A stretch of 38,835 nucleotides of DNA from Frankia sp. R82. Lineage in GTDB: Bacteria > Actinomycetota > Actinomycetes > Frankiales > Frankiaceae. Each line of letters opens with the position of its first letter. The first letter of the stretch is position 1. Shown here piece by piece: positions 5,386-12,107 of the stretch. Made by a program: the position numbers and the translations under genes. The DNA lies in NCBI RefSeq assembly GCF_023716925.1, contig NZ_JAMQQG010000037.1, forward strand, positions 1 to 38,835, written 5' to 3'. Below the pieces are notes generated by a model. That model saw only the letters and a list, made by a program, of their open reading frames with translations, ran no database searches and was not told where the DNA came from.

Positions 5386-5518
5386 CACCGCCGATGAAAG
5401 GCGAGGCGTCTCGCGCGGGCGGGGCAACGCGAGAAGGGCCTGACGTCGCCATGGGCGGGCATTGGGACAGGGATCCGACGTCGCGCGGACGGGGCCGCCC
5501 GAGCAGGAAGACAGGGCT

Positions 5519-6082
5519 GTGCGCTGGAAGGTGACGGGGCGGCGCCTCGCCTTCGCCACGCCGTGGCTCGGCGTGTGGTTTCTGGACGTCGAACGGCCTG
5601 ACGGCACGGCCGGTGAATATCACGTGGTGCAGCTGCGGGACCTGGCGGTGGTCGCGGCCGTGGACGACGCGGATCGGGTGCTGATGATGTGGCGGCACCG
5701 GATCGCCACGGACAGCTGGGGGTGGGAACTCCCGATGGGGCTGGTCGAGGATGGTGAGGATCCGCAGGCCGCCGGGGCGCGGGAACTCGAGGAGGAGACC
5801 GGCTGGCGGCCCGGGGCAATCAGCCCACTGATCTATGCGGAGCCTGCCGGCGGAATCACCAACGCCCGCCATTTTCTTTTCCGGGCGGACGGCTGTGTCC
5901 AGGTCGGTGCACCCACTGAACGCAACGAATCCGACCGCCTCGAGTGGATCCCACTCGCCGAGCTCCGCGGGATGATCGAACGCCGGGAGGTCGTCAGCGG
6001 TGCCACGATCCTCGGTGTGCTGTCGCTGCTGCTCGGCAGTTCTGACGGCCCGCCACCGAGGCCGGACCGTCTCCAGAGATGA
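5519..6082 (+). CDS. Nudix hydrolase (187 aa)
   Basis: Hydrolyses nucleoside diphosphates linked to another moiety. The Nudix box is complete at residues 74-96 from the GTG at 5519: Gly74, Glu80, Arg88-Glu89, Glu92-Glu93 and Gly95 fit GX5EX7REUXEEXGU. Strands before it (VVAAVDDADRVLMMWRHR) and the PAGGITNARHFLF segment after it resemble the ADP-ribose/ADP-sugar pyrophosphatase subgroup, but this is only a resemblance. The start is uncertain: the frame extends to a TTG at 5462, which would add 19 poorly conserved residues. It is probably co-transcribed with the HIT gene upstream. A regulatory palindrome for the next transcription unit lies about 60 bases after its stop. Confidence 0.88.
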   Translation: MRWKVTGRRLAFATPWLGVWFLDVERPDGTAGEYHVVQLRDLAVVAAVDDADRVLMMWRHRIATDSWGWELPMGLVEDGEDPQAAGARELEEETGWRPGAISPLIYAEPAGGITNARHFLFRADGCVQVGAPTERNESDRLEWIPLAELRGMIERREVVSGATILGVLSLLLGSSDGPPPRPDRLQR

Positions 6083-7754: not shown

Positions 7755-8696
7755 GTGGATGACGGGCTCGCTGACGCGGCGCCGGACCAGCCAGGGACCG
7801 GCCTTCCGTTCGGTAGGCCTGGACGGTTCTGGCGGGGAAATCTGCATACGCATACGGACCGGTCCGACGGGGCGCTGTCGCCCGCCGAGACGGCGCGGCA
7901 CTACCGGGAGGCCGGTTACGACTTCCTGGCGATCACCGATCATTTCCGGGCCAGGTTCGGCTTTCCGGTGGTCGACACCCGTGACCTGCGCACCGACGGA
8001 TTCACCACTCTGATCGGTGCCGAGCTGCACGCACCGCGCACGGAGTTCTCCGACGAGTGGCACATCATCGCGGTCGGCCTGCCGCTGGGCTTCCCGCCGC
8101 CCGACCCCGAGGAGACCGGCCCGGCACTGGCTCGCCGGGCGCGGGCCGCGGGAGCGTTCATCGGTATGGCGCATCCGGCGGCGTCCCTGCTCACGGTGGC
8201 GGACGCCGAAAGCCTCGACTCGGCTCACGCCGTCGAGGTGTTCAACGCGCTGGCGGCGCTGGAGAACCGGGGCGACAGCTGGCATCTCACTGACATCCTG
8301 CTGGGCCGCGGGCATCGGCTGGGTGCCTATGCCGCCGACGACGCGCATTTCCAGCCGCGGGATCCGCCGGCCTGCGCCGGTTGGGTGCACGTCCGCGCCG
8401 TCTCCCTCGACCCGGACGAGCTCCTGGCCGCCCTCAAGGCCGGCCACTACTACGCGAGCACCGGCCCCGAACTGCACGATGTCGAGCTGCGCGATGGCAT
8501 GCTCACCGTCCGGTGTTCACCGGTGCGCAAGATCCTGCTGACCGGCGGCGTCCCGGGCAAGCAGGTGCTGGCGGGAAAAGAGCTGACGGAAGGCGCACTC
8601 CCGGTCGCGATGTTCGGCGACGGCCACTGCCGGGTCACCGTCGAGGACGCCGCCGGCGGCCGCGCCTGGACCAACCCCATCCACCTTCAGCCCTGA
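7755..8696 (+). CDS. PHP-domain metal-dependent phosphoesterase (313 aa)
   Basis: Polymerase-and-histidinol-phosphatase fold, a metal-dependent phosphoester hydrolase. Motif I is NLHTHTDRSDG (His31, His33, Asp38), motif II AITDH (His63), then GAELHAP with the metal-binding Glu, MAHPAAS with a further His, and DDAH late in the domain. All expected metal ligands appear present. Relatives act on small phosphate esters; some hydrolyse 3',5'-nucleoside bisphosphates, but that activity is not established here. The last 70 residues form a small beta-rich extension. The GTG start has no ribosome site but a -10 box close by. The 3' end overlaps the convergent kinase pseudogene by 10 bases. Confidence 0.88.
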   Translation: MDDGLADAAPDQPGTGLPFGRPGRFWRGNLHTHTDRSDGALSPAETARHYREAGYDFLAITDHFRARFGFPVVDTRDLRTDGFTTLIGAELHAPRTEFSDEWHIIAVGLPLGFPPPDPEETGPALARRARAAGAFIGMAHPAASLLTVADAESLDSAHAVEVFNALAALENRGDSWHLTDILLGRGHRLGAYAADDAHFQPRDPPACAGWVHVRAVSLDPDELLAALKAGHYYASTGPELHDVELRDGMLTVRCSPVRKILLTGGVPGKQVLAGKELTEGALPVAMFGDGHCRVTVEDAAGGRAWTNPIHLQP

Positions 8697-9613
8697 GGGT
8701 CGACGGCGACGAGGTCGGCGGTGGTGGGGTGGCGGCTGGTGCCGGGGAAACCGACCGTCCAGCCGGCGGCGAGCACCGCGGTGGCGAGGGCCCGGTCCGG
8801 GTCCTGGGTGCGCAGCCAGGCGTGCAGGAAACCTGCGAACAGGGCGTCACCGGCGCCGGTGGTGTCCACCACGCCGAACGGCGCCCGGGTGGCGATGACG
8901 CGGGGTTCGCGATCCGGGAGGGCCAGCAGGCAGCCCGCGGCGCCCAGGCCGACCACGACAATCCGGGCCCGGCCATGCGTCAGCACCTCCCGGGCGAACA
9001 CGGCCGGGTCCACCGTGAGGTTCTCCGCCGAGCAGAACACGATCGACGCGTGGTCGATCCAGTCCGTGAGGTAGCTGTCCTGCAGGCCGCTGGTCGCCTG
9101 CAGGTCCACGGCGATCGGAACCCGCGCGGCGGCGGCGACGGGCAGCAGGCCACGGGCGAACCCGATCGTGGAGATCGACGCCAGCGTCGCCCCGTCCACC
9201 AGCTGCTCGAACACGGAGATCGGATAGTGGCGCTCGGGCAGGTCCTTGAGATCGGTGATGATCTGCCGGCGCCCGTCCGGGTCGACGAGCACCGCCGACT
9301 GCGCGATGGCATCCGCAGTCAGAATCCCCGGACCGGTGAGCCCCGCACGGATCAGGGTTTCCCTGGCCAGCCGACCTGCATTGTCTGCCCCGAGGAACGT
9401 TGCAAGCCGCACACCACTACCCAGCGCCGCCAGGCCTCGTGCGACGTTGCTGCCAACCCCGGCCGCCTCAAGTCGCAGCGCGGTCGGCGTGTACCGCGCT
9501 GCGGTCTAGCTGACTGGGAAGCTGTCCACTGGAATCGACTGCTGTACGTTCACCACTCCGACGACCACGATCGGGCCGACGAGGTGCCCCGGCCGGACTA
9601 TGGCTGGTTCCAT
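8687..9613 (-). pseudogene. PfkB-family sugar/nucleoside kinase interrupted by an in-frame amber codon
   Basis: Reading back from the obvious C-terminal part shows a full PfkB kinase of 308 codons with one TAG at codon 36 (9506-9508). Before the stop the frame reads VVVGVVNVQQSIPVDSFPV, the typical first strand and lid region. After it come RYTPTALRLE and GVGSNVARGLAALG, the first PfkB signature. The second signature DTTGAGDALFAGF, with the catalytic Asp, is intact near the C-terminus. No frameshift is needed. The stop stands where relatives often have Tyr, so a single base change (TAC or TAT to TAG) would explain it. ATG 9613 overlaps the upstream nuclease-like gene by 16 bases, with GAGG upstream, so this is the third gene of that operon. 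A GTG at 9412 could restart a version lacking the first 68 residues, but it would lack the substrate-binding N-terminus. Substrate unknown. Confidence 0.8.
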
Positions 9614-10671
9614 GAGTTGTCGGCCTCGTCCAGGGTCAGCTGGGCCGGGAGCAGGCGGTCGGCCATGGTGTCGATCGGGGCCCGCGCCAGGAGGGAAAGC
9701 GCGTATCGCTGCTGGTCCTGGTCGGCGAGGTTGAGTTCAAGATACTCACGGCTTCGTCTGACTCTGCCACGGAGATCGCCCTTGTCGAGGATCGTGTAGA
9801 TCTCGGTGACCGCCTGCTCTCGCAGCTTGACGAGTTCCCGAGCTCGCCATCTCACGGACGTGTTGAATGTCGCCGATCGGACGGCGTCGTCGCCGGTGAT
9901 GTGGACATTGTCGGGGACGTCGGCTCGCCCGATCTCCCCCATGGAATATGTGCACAGGCGCTCACTGAGGAGGCGCTTGCAGTAAGCGAGCTCGGCTGGG
10001 GACTGGTTAGCCGCGGCTGCTGGATCGAAGGGAATTATGTAGAGTGGCCGGGCCCCGTCCTTGCTTCCCTCGGTCACCTGCACGGCTGTACACAGGTCGA
10101 GAATCTCGGTTCGTGCAGTCTTTTTGATGAGGCTGAGCTCTGCCCAGAGCCCGTCGGGCGTGATGGAGAGGCCGATGGTGCCGCTTTCGGCTGGCGACAG
10201 GCCGTGTCCGTTTAGCTCGGCGGTGAGATGCAGCAGCGTTGCGGTCTGAAGCTCCACATCCTCGGCCGGGATGACGTAGATGACGTATGCGTGTTGTGCT
10301 CCGCCAAGCGCAGCGTTCGGGTCAGAGCATGCGGCGAGCAGTTTGCGGCCCTGTTCGGCGGTCGAGCTCATCGGTGAGAAGCTGCCTGCCTTGCACTCCA
10401 GTACGAGATGGATACTGGACCGCGGATGGTTCAGGAGCACATCGGGTTCTGGTGGATCTGGTTTGAGTCCGAAGGTGACGAAGCTCTTCCTGATGGGTTC
10501 GGCCACGCCGAGTCGAGCACCGATGGAACGAAGCGCGAATCCGGCCTCTGCATACGGTGCCCGGCGACCTGGGGTGCCCCCGGCTGGCCGTTTTACCAAC
10601 CAGATGCAGGTGTTGAGCTGGAAGACGGGATCTCGTGTCAGGTGGGTTTCAGGCAACGGTCCGGGTGCCAT
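9598..10671 (-). CDS. PD-(D/E)XK nuclease-like protein (357 aa)
   Basis: The overall family is not recognised, but the N-terminal half has a plausible PD-(D/E)XK nuclease core. A Glu lies on a helix (PYAEAGFALRSIGARLG, Glu42), Asp77 in EPDVLL ends a strand, and HLVLECK carries Glu92 and Lys94. EQGRKLL follows, resembling the Gln-bearing helix of restriction-type nucleases. The remaining 200 residues are mixed alpha/beta with no known motif. It overlaps the upstream gene by 23 bases (ATG at 10671) and the downstream kinase by 16, so translation is probably coupled. GC content is visibly lower than in neighbouring purine genes, suggesting acquisition. A defence or DNA-processing role is an inference from fold and company. 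Confidence 0.65.
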   Translation of the reverse strand: MAPGPLPETHLTRDPVFQLNTCIWLVKRPAGGTPGRRAPYAEAGFALRSIGARLGVAEPIRKSFVTFGLKPDPPEPDVLLNHPRSSIHLVLECKAGSFSPMSSTAEQGRKLLAACSDPNAALGGAQHAYVIYVIPAEDVELQTATLLHLTAELNGHGLSPAESGTIGLSITPDGLWAELSLIKKTARTEILDLCTAVQVTEGSKDGARPLYIIPFDPAAAANQSPAELAYCKRLLSERLCTYSMGEIGRADVPDNVHITGDDAVRSATFNTSVRWRARELVKLREQAVTEIYTILDKGDLRGRVRRSREYLELNLADQDQQRYALSLLARAPIDTMADRLLPAQLTLDEADNSWNQP

Positions 10672-11827
10672 CCTTCGGGATCAGGGAGGAGTAGTCGCGT
10701 CCCGCCACATATGCACGGACGTTGGGATCGACATGTCGCTGGACACTCGAAAGCAGCCTGTTGATCAGGTTGCCGCAGGTACCTTCGGGCAGGACGGCAA
10801 CCAGGCGCTCTGGCGTGATCTCCAGAAGGAAAGGCTGCCAGAGATTCTGGTCGATCGCGCTCGCCTGCACCTTTCGGGTGCCGAGCCAGGTCGGAAAACC
10901 GGTGACATGAAAGCGATTTCTGGATGTACTGAAGAGACTTGTAACCCACCGGCGGAAAGTGCTCTCGAGTAGCGGGGCGCTGAACATGAACTCCGCGACT
11001 GATCCGTCGAGGGTGAGTTTTGAATTCTCTTCTCTGGCGGTGACCCACAGCAGCCGTTCGAGGTCCTTTGTGAGCTGTGAGTACATGTCGGTGACGTGCA
11101 GCAGGGCGCTTCGGTGGCCGAGGAAGGAATGACTCCTGTTCGTCACCTTGCCATCAAAATAGAGGTCGTGCCCGCCGCCGCCGAGGGCGGGAATTCTCAG
11201 GTGAGTGATCGAGCCGAGTGGCGCATATGTAGCCTGCAGCGGCGACATGCTCTGATCGATCACCTGCAGGCGGTCGATCATCGTAAACCGAGAGGTTCGC
11301 CCCTCGTCGTCCCCGTTGCCATCGCCCTCGGAATCAAACAGGGATTCGTGCTCGAAGGTTATCCGGCCATACCTGCGCCCGCTGTTTGTGGCGCGTACGT
11401 GCGCCCAGAGGGCCTTGAACGAATCCGTTGACAGCCAGATGTGGTCGAGTGCTGGATTCCTATTGACGGCTCGGTTGACGAGGGAGTCGGAAGCCTCGCT
11501 CCGCAGCAGCGTGTACAGCGCAAAAAAACGGTGGTCGAGCCGCTCGACGAGGGCGGTTCCGGATCCGTTTTCACTGATAATCCGAAAAAGTTCGGTGCTG
11601 TCCCCCACCGGCTCGGCCGTCAGGCCGCTCCGGCCGAGTAGGTGGATGAAGCCGTCGGTCCCCGGCGACGATCCGACATTCTCCAGGAGGTAGCTCTTCT
11701 GGAGGCCGCCGGGGGTCTCGCGGTCACGGTGCTCGACGGGAAGGTCGGTGGACATCCCATCGAACCAGTCGAAGTAGTCTTCCCTGGAACTGAGCGGAGG
11801 AATATCGGCCACGCGTGCCGCCGGCAT
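10649..11827 (-). CDS. Unrecognised 392-aa protein, first gene of the nuclease/kinase operon
   Basis: No family was recognised. It is predicted soluble, with no signal peptide or membrane helix. Notable stretches are RFFALYTLLRSEASDSLVNRAVN, NPALDHIWLSTDSFKALWAHV, an acidic low-complexity loop around SEGDGNGDDEG, and a C-terminal part with VTGFPTWLGTRKVQASAIDQ. Charged and aromatic residues are spread as in a folded globular protein, and base composition is less GC-rich than the host average. The start is set at ATG 11827, which has AGGGGG five bases upstream; the frame extends to a TTG at 11890 but without a ribosome site. A TAGCAT -10-like box lies about 35 bases upstream of the ATG. The stop overlaps the nuclease-like gene, so the two products probably work together. 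Confidence 0.7.
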   Translation of the reverse strand: MPAARVADIPPLSSREDYFDWFDGMSTDLPVEHRDRETPGGLQKSYLLENVGSSPGTDGFIHLLGRSGLTAEPVGDSTELFRIISENGSGTALVERLDHRFFALYTLLRSEASDSLVNRAVNRNPALDHIWLSTDSFKALWAHVRATNSGRRYGRITFEHESLFDSEGDGNGDDEGRTSRFTMIDRLQVIDQSMSPLQATYAPLGSITHLRIPALGGGGHDLYFDGKVTNRSHSFLGHRSALLHVTDMYSQLTKDLERLLWVTAREENSKLTLDGSVAEFMFSAPLLESTFRRWVTSLFSTSRNRFHVTGFPTWLGTRKVQASAIDQNLWQPFLLEITPERLVAVLPEGTCGNLINRLLSSVQRHVDPNVRAYVAGRDYSSLIPKDGTRTVA

Positions 11828-12107
11828 ACTCGCCCCCTCGCTCGTCCGATAGCCGCCAATTGTGCTGCATGCTACATCGGCCGCGTCCAAAAATCTCCGG
11901 CCCCGGCCGGCGGACTGGAGATCGGTGTTGTCCGGCAGGTACCAGGTATGGCGTCCCCGCCCTGGCTCGCTGGTGGGGCGGGCTGAGAGCGGTTTCGGGT
12001 GCGCCTGCCTGCCGGGCGGGAGCGTCCGACCGAGGAAGATACGGATCCCTCAGACGTGGCGCGGCCCGTCCGGCCTGAACCGGCTGATCACGGTGCGGCT
12101 TCCCCGG

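Follow-up and report, generated by a model that had tools for sequence, protein, structure and literature searches.

The question raised by this locus is whether overlapping minus-strand genes found among metabolic genes of Frankia sp. R82 (contig NZ_JAMQQG010000037.1, positions 1 to 38,835; these 38,835 nucleotides are the whole stretch of DNA analysed and are called the window) work together, and to what end. An earlier note on this DNA had joined three of them, encoding a protein of no recognized family, a PD-(D/E)XK nuclease-like protein and a PfkB-type kinase, into one unit that might act as a nucleoside-linked defence or modification system. The answer proposed here is narrower and bears on the first two genes, named A and B (Table 1). 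It is reasonably probable that they form a horizontally spread two-gene module of genome defence, directed against phages or plasmids, a reading drawn from their paired inheritance, the nuclease-type active site of B, their sporadic spread over phyla and their context of defence and mobile genes.

Genes A and B are both open and share 23 bases, as first described, and the open reading frame (ORF) of gene A can also be read from a TTG at 11890. Their GC (guanine plus cytosine) content, 0.609 for A and 0.627 for B, is lower than that of the pfkB region (8687-9613, 0.710), the PHP gene (0.710) and purB (0.722), and the GC content at third codon positions follows the same trend (0.75 and 0.73 versus 0.85-0.94 in pfkB, the PHP gene and purB), which bears out the difference from the purine genes seen earlier. 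Gene A, originally described as matching no family, gives indeed no Pfam, NCBIfam or PADLOC match at E-values up to 1, and by these searches its family is new to the three collections. Gene B gives no Pfam or PADLOC match at E-values up to 1 and a single NCBIfam match (E 0.065) far under the cut-off.

Relatives of A were gathered at 33 loci (numbered L; genomes are numbered G and contigs C), including the window and taking L010/L015 and L004/L011 as one locus each. At 25 of these loci, A has an intact B as its immediate same-strand neighbour, overlapping or abutting it, in the order A-B at 23 and B-A at two (L004/L011 and L092); the case that the two genes never occur together, considered in the earlier note, is therefore not what is found. 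The eight other loci comprise B remnants (L016, L017 and L018), a diverged B in place (L037), loci without B (L019 and L020), a contig end (L029) and a fragment of A (L003). The A/B overlaps computed at L034, L035 and L021 are inflated by the choice of start. Because some B rows had first been included by position, the two subfamilies of the pair were compared independently by profile-profile alignment, which gave E-values of 7.8e-15 for B and 9.3e-36 for A. Furthermore, for the 19 loci having both genes, the A tree and the B tree, each built by maximum likelihood, contain the same well-supported groups (the window with L027 and L028; L015 with L022; L023 with L025; L006 with L091; L004 with L092; and a group of nine rows around the window); for the Bacillales-type rows, B gives a single clade and A an unresolved set. 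Since the two trees agree in these groups, A and B are, as judged by their phylogenies, inherited as a pair. At L018 (11248-11477), the middle of B is gone, only residues 1-29 and 310-359 being alignable, and the flanking A and drmD remain.

The protein encoded by gene B is, by motif and predicted fold, a PD-(D/E)XK nuclease. In an alignment of 19 B rows, D/E77, E92, K94 and Q107 are each found in 18, the exception being L037; in the six rows of the second subfamily, the D, K and Q are invariant and the E is present in five. The core of Asp77, Glu92 and Lys94 recognized at first reading is therefore present and conserved, but Glu42, which had been placed beside it on a preceding helix, is a Glu in just seven of 19 rows and was rejected as a catalytic residue. 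The B-position protein of L037 (11091-12104) is altered at all four active-site positions and is possibly an inactive B.

The AlphaFold2 model of B has a predicted local distance difference test score (pLDDT) of 89.3 and comprises a nuclease core at about residues 14-200, a C-terminal domain of its own and a C-terminal tail of low confidence. The earlier note had allowed for the fold being absent; in the model, the core has the order alpha-beta-beta-beta-alpha-beta (helix 39-42, strands 46-50, 78-82 and 87-93, helix 103-114, strand 127-135), with pLDDT values of 90-98 in the block of residues 41-140. Re-alignment with VIA places NucS (Z 7.8), EndoMS (7.5), BsmI (7.3) and FokI (7.2) near the top, with AF1548 and XisH also found there, nucleases or nuclease-like proteins heading the list; at this level a common arrangement can suffice, and these values are consistent with the motif. 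Weak Pfam matches among 40 A and B members concern HSDR_N_2 (four members, best E 0.0034), NucS_C and PDDEXK_11 (one member each). No match to PDB sequences was obtained with the profiles of A or B, so B is without sequence match to a solved structure. Membership of B in NucS/EndoMS was considered and rejected: the core of B is N-terminal and that of NucS is C-terminal, and PF01939 is matched by one of the 40 members, at E 0.057.

The low-confidence tail corresponds to the last 15 residues of B. A loose clamp-ligand-like pattern, defined after viewing the tails as Q-hydrophobic-x-hydrophobic-(F/D/E/N) or Q-x-x-L-F, occurs there in 15 of the 17 non-archaeal rows (mean of shuffled tails 0.66) and in neither of the two archaeal rows. 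Among the non-archaeal rows, six of 17 have the LF form and two the strict clamp consensus, patterns likewise chosen with the tails in view; the tail of the window's B is QLTLD, without phenylalanine. In actinobacterial NucS, the C-terminus carries (E/K)-(L/Y)-(T/R)-L-F and the C-terminal region is required for clamp binding, according to the part of the source consulted (PMC8228993). That the tail peptide of B might direct a replication-coupled targeting is a speculation from the sequences.

The distribution of the pair is sporadic. In single-sequence searches, neither gene A nor gene B has a match in 12 genomes of the same genus; among 145 other genomes near that of the window, gene A matches two, both of the same family, and gene B none. 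One of the two (G030) carries beside its A a distant B that the single-sequence search misses and that was accepted on two grounds, where it lies and the profile-profile match obtained for its subfamily. The A9 profile found nothing in 34 other genomes of the order; because both searches miss the B of G030, the absences of B in the 145 relatives and in the 34 genomes of the order hold for close relatives of B only. Counting the window's own genome, presence amounts to two of 396 and four of 393 genomes. The two closest genomes of the genus having this locus (G006 and G004, with purB 97 and 96% identical) hold another ORF between the PHP gene and purB; since the slot is filled otherwise in these two genomes and the genomes of the genus are unmatched, the pair looks, from these comparisons, like an arrival in a variable slot, in agreement with the acquisition suggested earlier from its low GC content. 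The slot ORF of G004 and G006 (L077 5917-7545 and L078 2945-4516) displays by eye ATPase-like and FELK nuclease-like motifs and is a candidate for a second, different defence or mobile gene.

More widely, A has relatives in Actinomycetota, Bacillota, Chloroflexota, Nitrospirota, Verrucomicrobiota and archaea. Running a three-row profile of A over genome contigs brought up 23 loci (L015-L037), from Acidimicrobiia, Streptomyces, Planobispora, Bacillales, Chloroflexi, Nitrospira, Stahlbacteria, Verrucomicrobia, Methanothrix and Clostridiales, and another genome added L092. Mobility is indicated by the occurrence of A on four plasmids and two viral contigs (L038 and L091): tblastn with A matched plasmids of Metabacillus, Lysinibacillus and Methanocaldococcus jannaschii, and the A of Metabacillus used as query matched a plasmid of Halobacterium hubeiense in addition. 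No match was obtained with gene B by tblastn in plasmids and phages, with the A of Metabacillus in phages, or in a third viral scan, and gene B alone gave 23 pattern matches in genome contigs, none of them a relative. At L091 (4996-7084), on a Bacillus-type contig that is viral or resembles an integrative and conjugative element, the pair lies near genes that look, by eye, like integrase, ImmA and repressor genes, which is the usual place of cargo genes on such elements. At L011/L004 (G030), the pair follows a type I restriction-modification (RM) operon and adjoins truB, and a stretch resembling the end of truB is repeated, by eye, beyond the pair, which suggests that it was inserted at the 3' end of truB.

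Known or candidate defence genes, as defined by PADLOC models, lie near 13 of the 33 A loci; L003, L017, L091 and L092 were outside the scans, and some other loci were covered in part. The case scans bore on 124 of 135 proteins of 15 loci and on 60 of 61 proteins of nine loci, partly picked after matches were known, and left out proteins under 150 amino acids and beyond 8 kilobases (kb). The 11 proteins outside the 15-locus scan, some of which other scans covered, are two each of L022, L035, L037 and L038 and one each of L026, L030 and L031. The control bore on 123 proteins of 11 actinobacterial regions taken at arbitrary positions, one protein coming from a twelfth. The results concern the first 25 of 105 and of 335 families for the cases and the first 25 of 35 for the control. 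Together with the plasmids and viral contigs, these 13 loci show the association with defence and mobile genes that the earlier note had expected of a system.

Taken individually, the DISARM and type I RM loci provide a strong defence context. At L015/L010, A, B, drmD, drmMI, drmA and a DUF1998/MZB gene in the place of drmB follow one another, with 4-base overlaps among A, B and drmD, the genes after drmD being seen in G387. A, its B decayed, directly precedes drmD at L016 and L018. Elsewhere among the A loci, tblastn (E 1e-30) over the 37 stretches that cover the 33 loci found no DISARM genes of the L010/L013 type. The pair is flanked by type I RM genes at L011, where A-B follows hsdR at a distance of 155 bases, and at L020, L033 and L036; an HsdS gene is found at L034, type II RM genes at L031 and PDC-S28 at L006. 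L007 and L020 have GajA/OLD-like ATPases, of which L021 has a homologue and L019 a homologous fragment. A gene with a PemK/MazF domain lies upstream of A at seven Bacillales-type loci (L005, L030-L033, L036 and L038) and at none of the 26 others; its product of about 240 amino acids has a long N-terminal extension and is 42-78% identical between loci (the domain was scanned in L005 and L033), and at L038 a transposase gene separates it from A. One DRT2-like protein and three MADS-type matches of the 15-locus scan were not tied to loci. A small cyclase-like ORF, with weak PycC and Guanylate_cyc matches, precedes A at L024.

The genome of the window has itself a class 1 DISARM set (homologues of drmD, drmMI, drmA and drmB) on contig C312 (L111 638-13812), and neither A nor B was found near it in the 19 kb examined there. 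The window was not retained as a DISARM locus, all DrmD, DrmA and MZB/DUF1998 matches of this genome (G000) being on other contigs and none on C323, nor as a type II RM locus, no cognate DNA methyltransferase gene adjoining the nuclease gene.

Protein A is modelled with a pLDDT of 86.5 as two parts. Residues 13-254 are nearest in predicted fold to CENP-L, Iml3 and RdgC, and residues 255-377 or so to CENP-N (chain residues 79-195) and RnlA (residues 93-198), the match to RnlA being weak and covering residues 254-381 or so of A. The best Foldseek match is CENP-L (E 9.3e-4, probability 1.00), and the first ten PDB rows are five human CENP-L, one yeast Iml3, two RnlA, one KICSTOR and one phytochrome. 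With VIA, Z is 8.7 for CENP-L (193 residues, root-mean-square deviation 4.6, model residues 13-254), 7.2 for Iml3, up to 7.1 for GGDEF-type proteins, 6.3 for RdgC, 6.0 for CENP-N (model residues 273-377) and 4.8 for RexA and RnlA, unrelated models typically reaching 7-8. No CENP-L, CENP-N or RdgC model is among the 20 Pfam families matched at E-values up to 1 by the 40 A and B members, 21 of which are A. The phage exclusion protein RexA has its fold in common with RdgC and IML3/CHL4, as reported in the part of PMC11077077 consulted, and passages of this paper and of PMC4080450 link the fold to DNA binding. Because no sequence relation was found and A is acidic, the predicted likeness to the CENP-L/RdgC/RexA group serves as a lead and does not establish membership. 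Conservation in A is highest in two loops preceding helices (218-239 and 347-363), with the motifs GK-x-T-N-R-S...H and P-x-G-T-C-G-N at the N-termini of the helices, and these loops could bind phosphate or nucleic acid.

The kinase gene has another status. Read from the ATG at 9613, its frame overlaps gene B by 16 bases, as the earlier note had observed, but in this assembly it is interrupted by a TAG in frame at 9506-9508, and a GTG at 9412 is the following start; because of this stop, the overlap joins gene B to a broken frame. This TAG may be either a real mutation or an assembly error. The remaining ORF matches PF00294 (E 6.8e-18) over positions 55-297 of the 302 of the profile only. By tblastn over the stretches that cover the 33 loci, pfkB has no match at any A locus other than the window. 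It is present in relatives without match to A-B: the G004 copy is intact and at another position, with a flavin-monooxygenase gene on one side and the PHP gene on the other; G006, a genome 85% complete, gave no match. The kinase was therefore rejected as a third component, pfkB being independent of A-B; of the unit first proposed, the intact and co-inherited pair stands and the membership of PfkB does not, and with it falls the idea of a nucleoside-linked system uniting nuclease and kinase. Apart from these genes, a NUDIX gene (5462-6082), which a HIT-domain gene directly precedes, gave the sole PADLOC match among the window genes scanned (candidate family PDC-S07, E 3.5e-9).

Table 1. Features of the locus, in positions of the window
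Feature	Coordinates	Strand	Remarks
Gene A	10649..11827	-	392 amino acids, new family; ATG 11827, stop 10649
Gene B	9598..10671	-	357 amino acids, PD-(D/E)XK nuclease-like; ATG 10671
PfkB-family kinase ORF (PF00294)	8687..9412	-	241 amino acids, N-terminally incomplete; neighbour, outside the module
Variable slot between PHP gene and purB	8697..12107		Relatives G004 and G006: ORF of about 520-540 amino acids instead of A-B

Under the defence reading, B would be the DNA-cutting effector and A would bind B and restrain or target it, thereby licensing it; A would probably recognise a nucleic-acid state of the invader through its two conserved polar loops. In bacteria, the tail of B may attach the protein to the beta sliding clamp and so lead to action on replicating foreign DNA. 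In Bacillales, the MazF/PemK-like gene would join the unit as a third gene, and in some Acidimicrobiia the pair would have been co-opted as the leading genes of a class 1 DISARM operon.

Several known systems are close to such a module. With the PD-(D/E)XK superfamily, including NucS/EndoMS and the cleavage domains of FokI and BsmI, B shares the core topology and the P-(D/E)...E-x-K...Q motif, but it differs by its lack of sequence match to solved structures, its own C-terminal domain and its constant partner A. The likeness of A to the group of RexA, RdgC and IML3-CHL4 (CENP-L/CENP-N) is one of predicted fold, whereas A is acidic, has no detectable sequence relation to the group and has a nuclease as partner where RexA has RexB. 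The likeness to RnlAB is limited to the weak fold match of the second part of A to RnlA, in a segment that presumably lies outside the RnlA HEPN domain. The likeness to MazEF-type systems is the MazF/PemK-domain gene of the Bacillales units, found at seven of 33 loci. With class 1 DISARM, the pair shares the array A-B-drmD-drmMI-drmA-drmB of L015/L010; a paper on DISARM-type systems describes PLD nucleases for DISARM, and its passages covered here do not include the A-B pair (PMC12458937). The two-gene logic of an effector nuclease and a sensor is that of Hachiman (HamAB), as far as described in the part of the source consulted (PMC12278908), but the Hachiman sensor is a helicase, and no helicase or ATPase family is matched by A.

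The same data allow other accounts. The pair might be an accessory of larger restriction systems such as DISARM or type I RM, A feeding them DNA or a signal and B replacing or adding a nuclease. The positions before drmD (A-B at L015, A and what is left of B at L016 and L018) and after hsdR (L011) speak for this account, and action in trans is possible because the window's own genome carries a DISARM set on another contig; yet 20 of the 33 loci have no assigned PADLOC system beside the pair, within the coverage given above, and no single fixed partner recurs: depending on the locus it is DISARM, type I RM, type II RM or an OLD-like gene, the variety that a defence island would show, so that we regard this account as unlikely. 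A role outside immunity, the pair being a nuclease system linked to replication and repair, either in NucS-like maintenance or in the stability of plasmids and other elements, seems distinctly improbable to us: NucS/EndoMS are among the nearest structural matches of B, NucS has a C-terminal clamp motif as reported in the part of PMC8228993 consulted, the loose tail pattern, itself post hoc, is frequent in non-archaeal B, and the predicted fold of A is common to RdgC, but the sporadic, low-GC distribution is unlike that of a maintenance gene, the nuclease cores of B and NucS lie towards opposite ends of the proteins, and the strict clamp consensus is rare. Finally, A could be a toxin-like enzyme and B its modulator, in an addiction pair that MazF would extend to three genes in Bacillales. 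The strongly conserved polar motifs of A, its weak match to RnlA and the seven loci with a MazF/PemK-like gene upstream would agree with an addiction pair; a full nuclease active site kept in 18 of 19 B rows is unusual for an antitoxin, and A is retained where B has decayed (L016, L017 and L018), the reverse of toxin loss, which makes this account very improbable.

The reading as a defence module, which we prefer to these three, also has observations weighing against it. The flanking genes scanned in the window are metabolic, gene B having as neighbours gene A, the PfkB remnant and the genes of a PHP hydrolase and of adenylosuccinate lyase. The count of 13 loci with defence neighbours is only suggestive as an enrichment, because cases and control differ in taxonomy and choice, and the control produced matches too, one to a type IV restriction enzyme and others of kinase, MADS, MkoA and effector type. 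At L016-L020, B has decayed or is absent, and at L037 it is altered at its four active-site positions, so that an active B may be dispensable to A in some cases. Foldseek alone gives no significant PDB match for B. The match of A to CENP-L barely exceeds the level of unrelated models, no PDB chain is matched by the profile of A at E-values up to 10, and the acidic character of A (isoelectric point of about 6) is unlike that of a simple DNA binder.

A bolder form of the defence reading, which we hold to be rather unlikely, would make A a prokaryotic relative of CENP-L/CENP-N (Iml3/Chl4) and RexA that senses DNA or forks in an ancient nuclease defence common to archaea and bacteria, the clamp-tethered B destroying replicating foreign DNA, and would have the inner kinetochore of eukaryotes recruit this fold from prokaryotic conflict systems.

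The search of the openly licensed PMC literature, which does not cover subscription papers or preprints outside PMC, returned no description of the A-B pair; the pair is probably a defence module that has yet to be described. The first reading of the locus is thereby corrected, the kinase being outside the system. If the defence reading is true, bacteria and archaea would share a module that is outside the PADLOC library and that reaches from plasmids of Methanocaldococcus and Halobacterium to Streptomyces and Bacillus. This module would have been built into DISARM, would rely on a partner protein without known family and would offer a possible prokaryotic context for the fold of CENP-L, RdgC and RexA.

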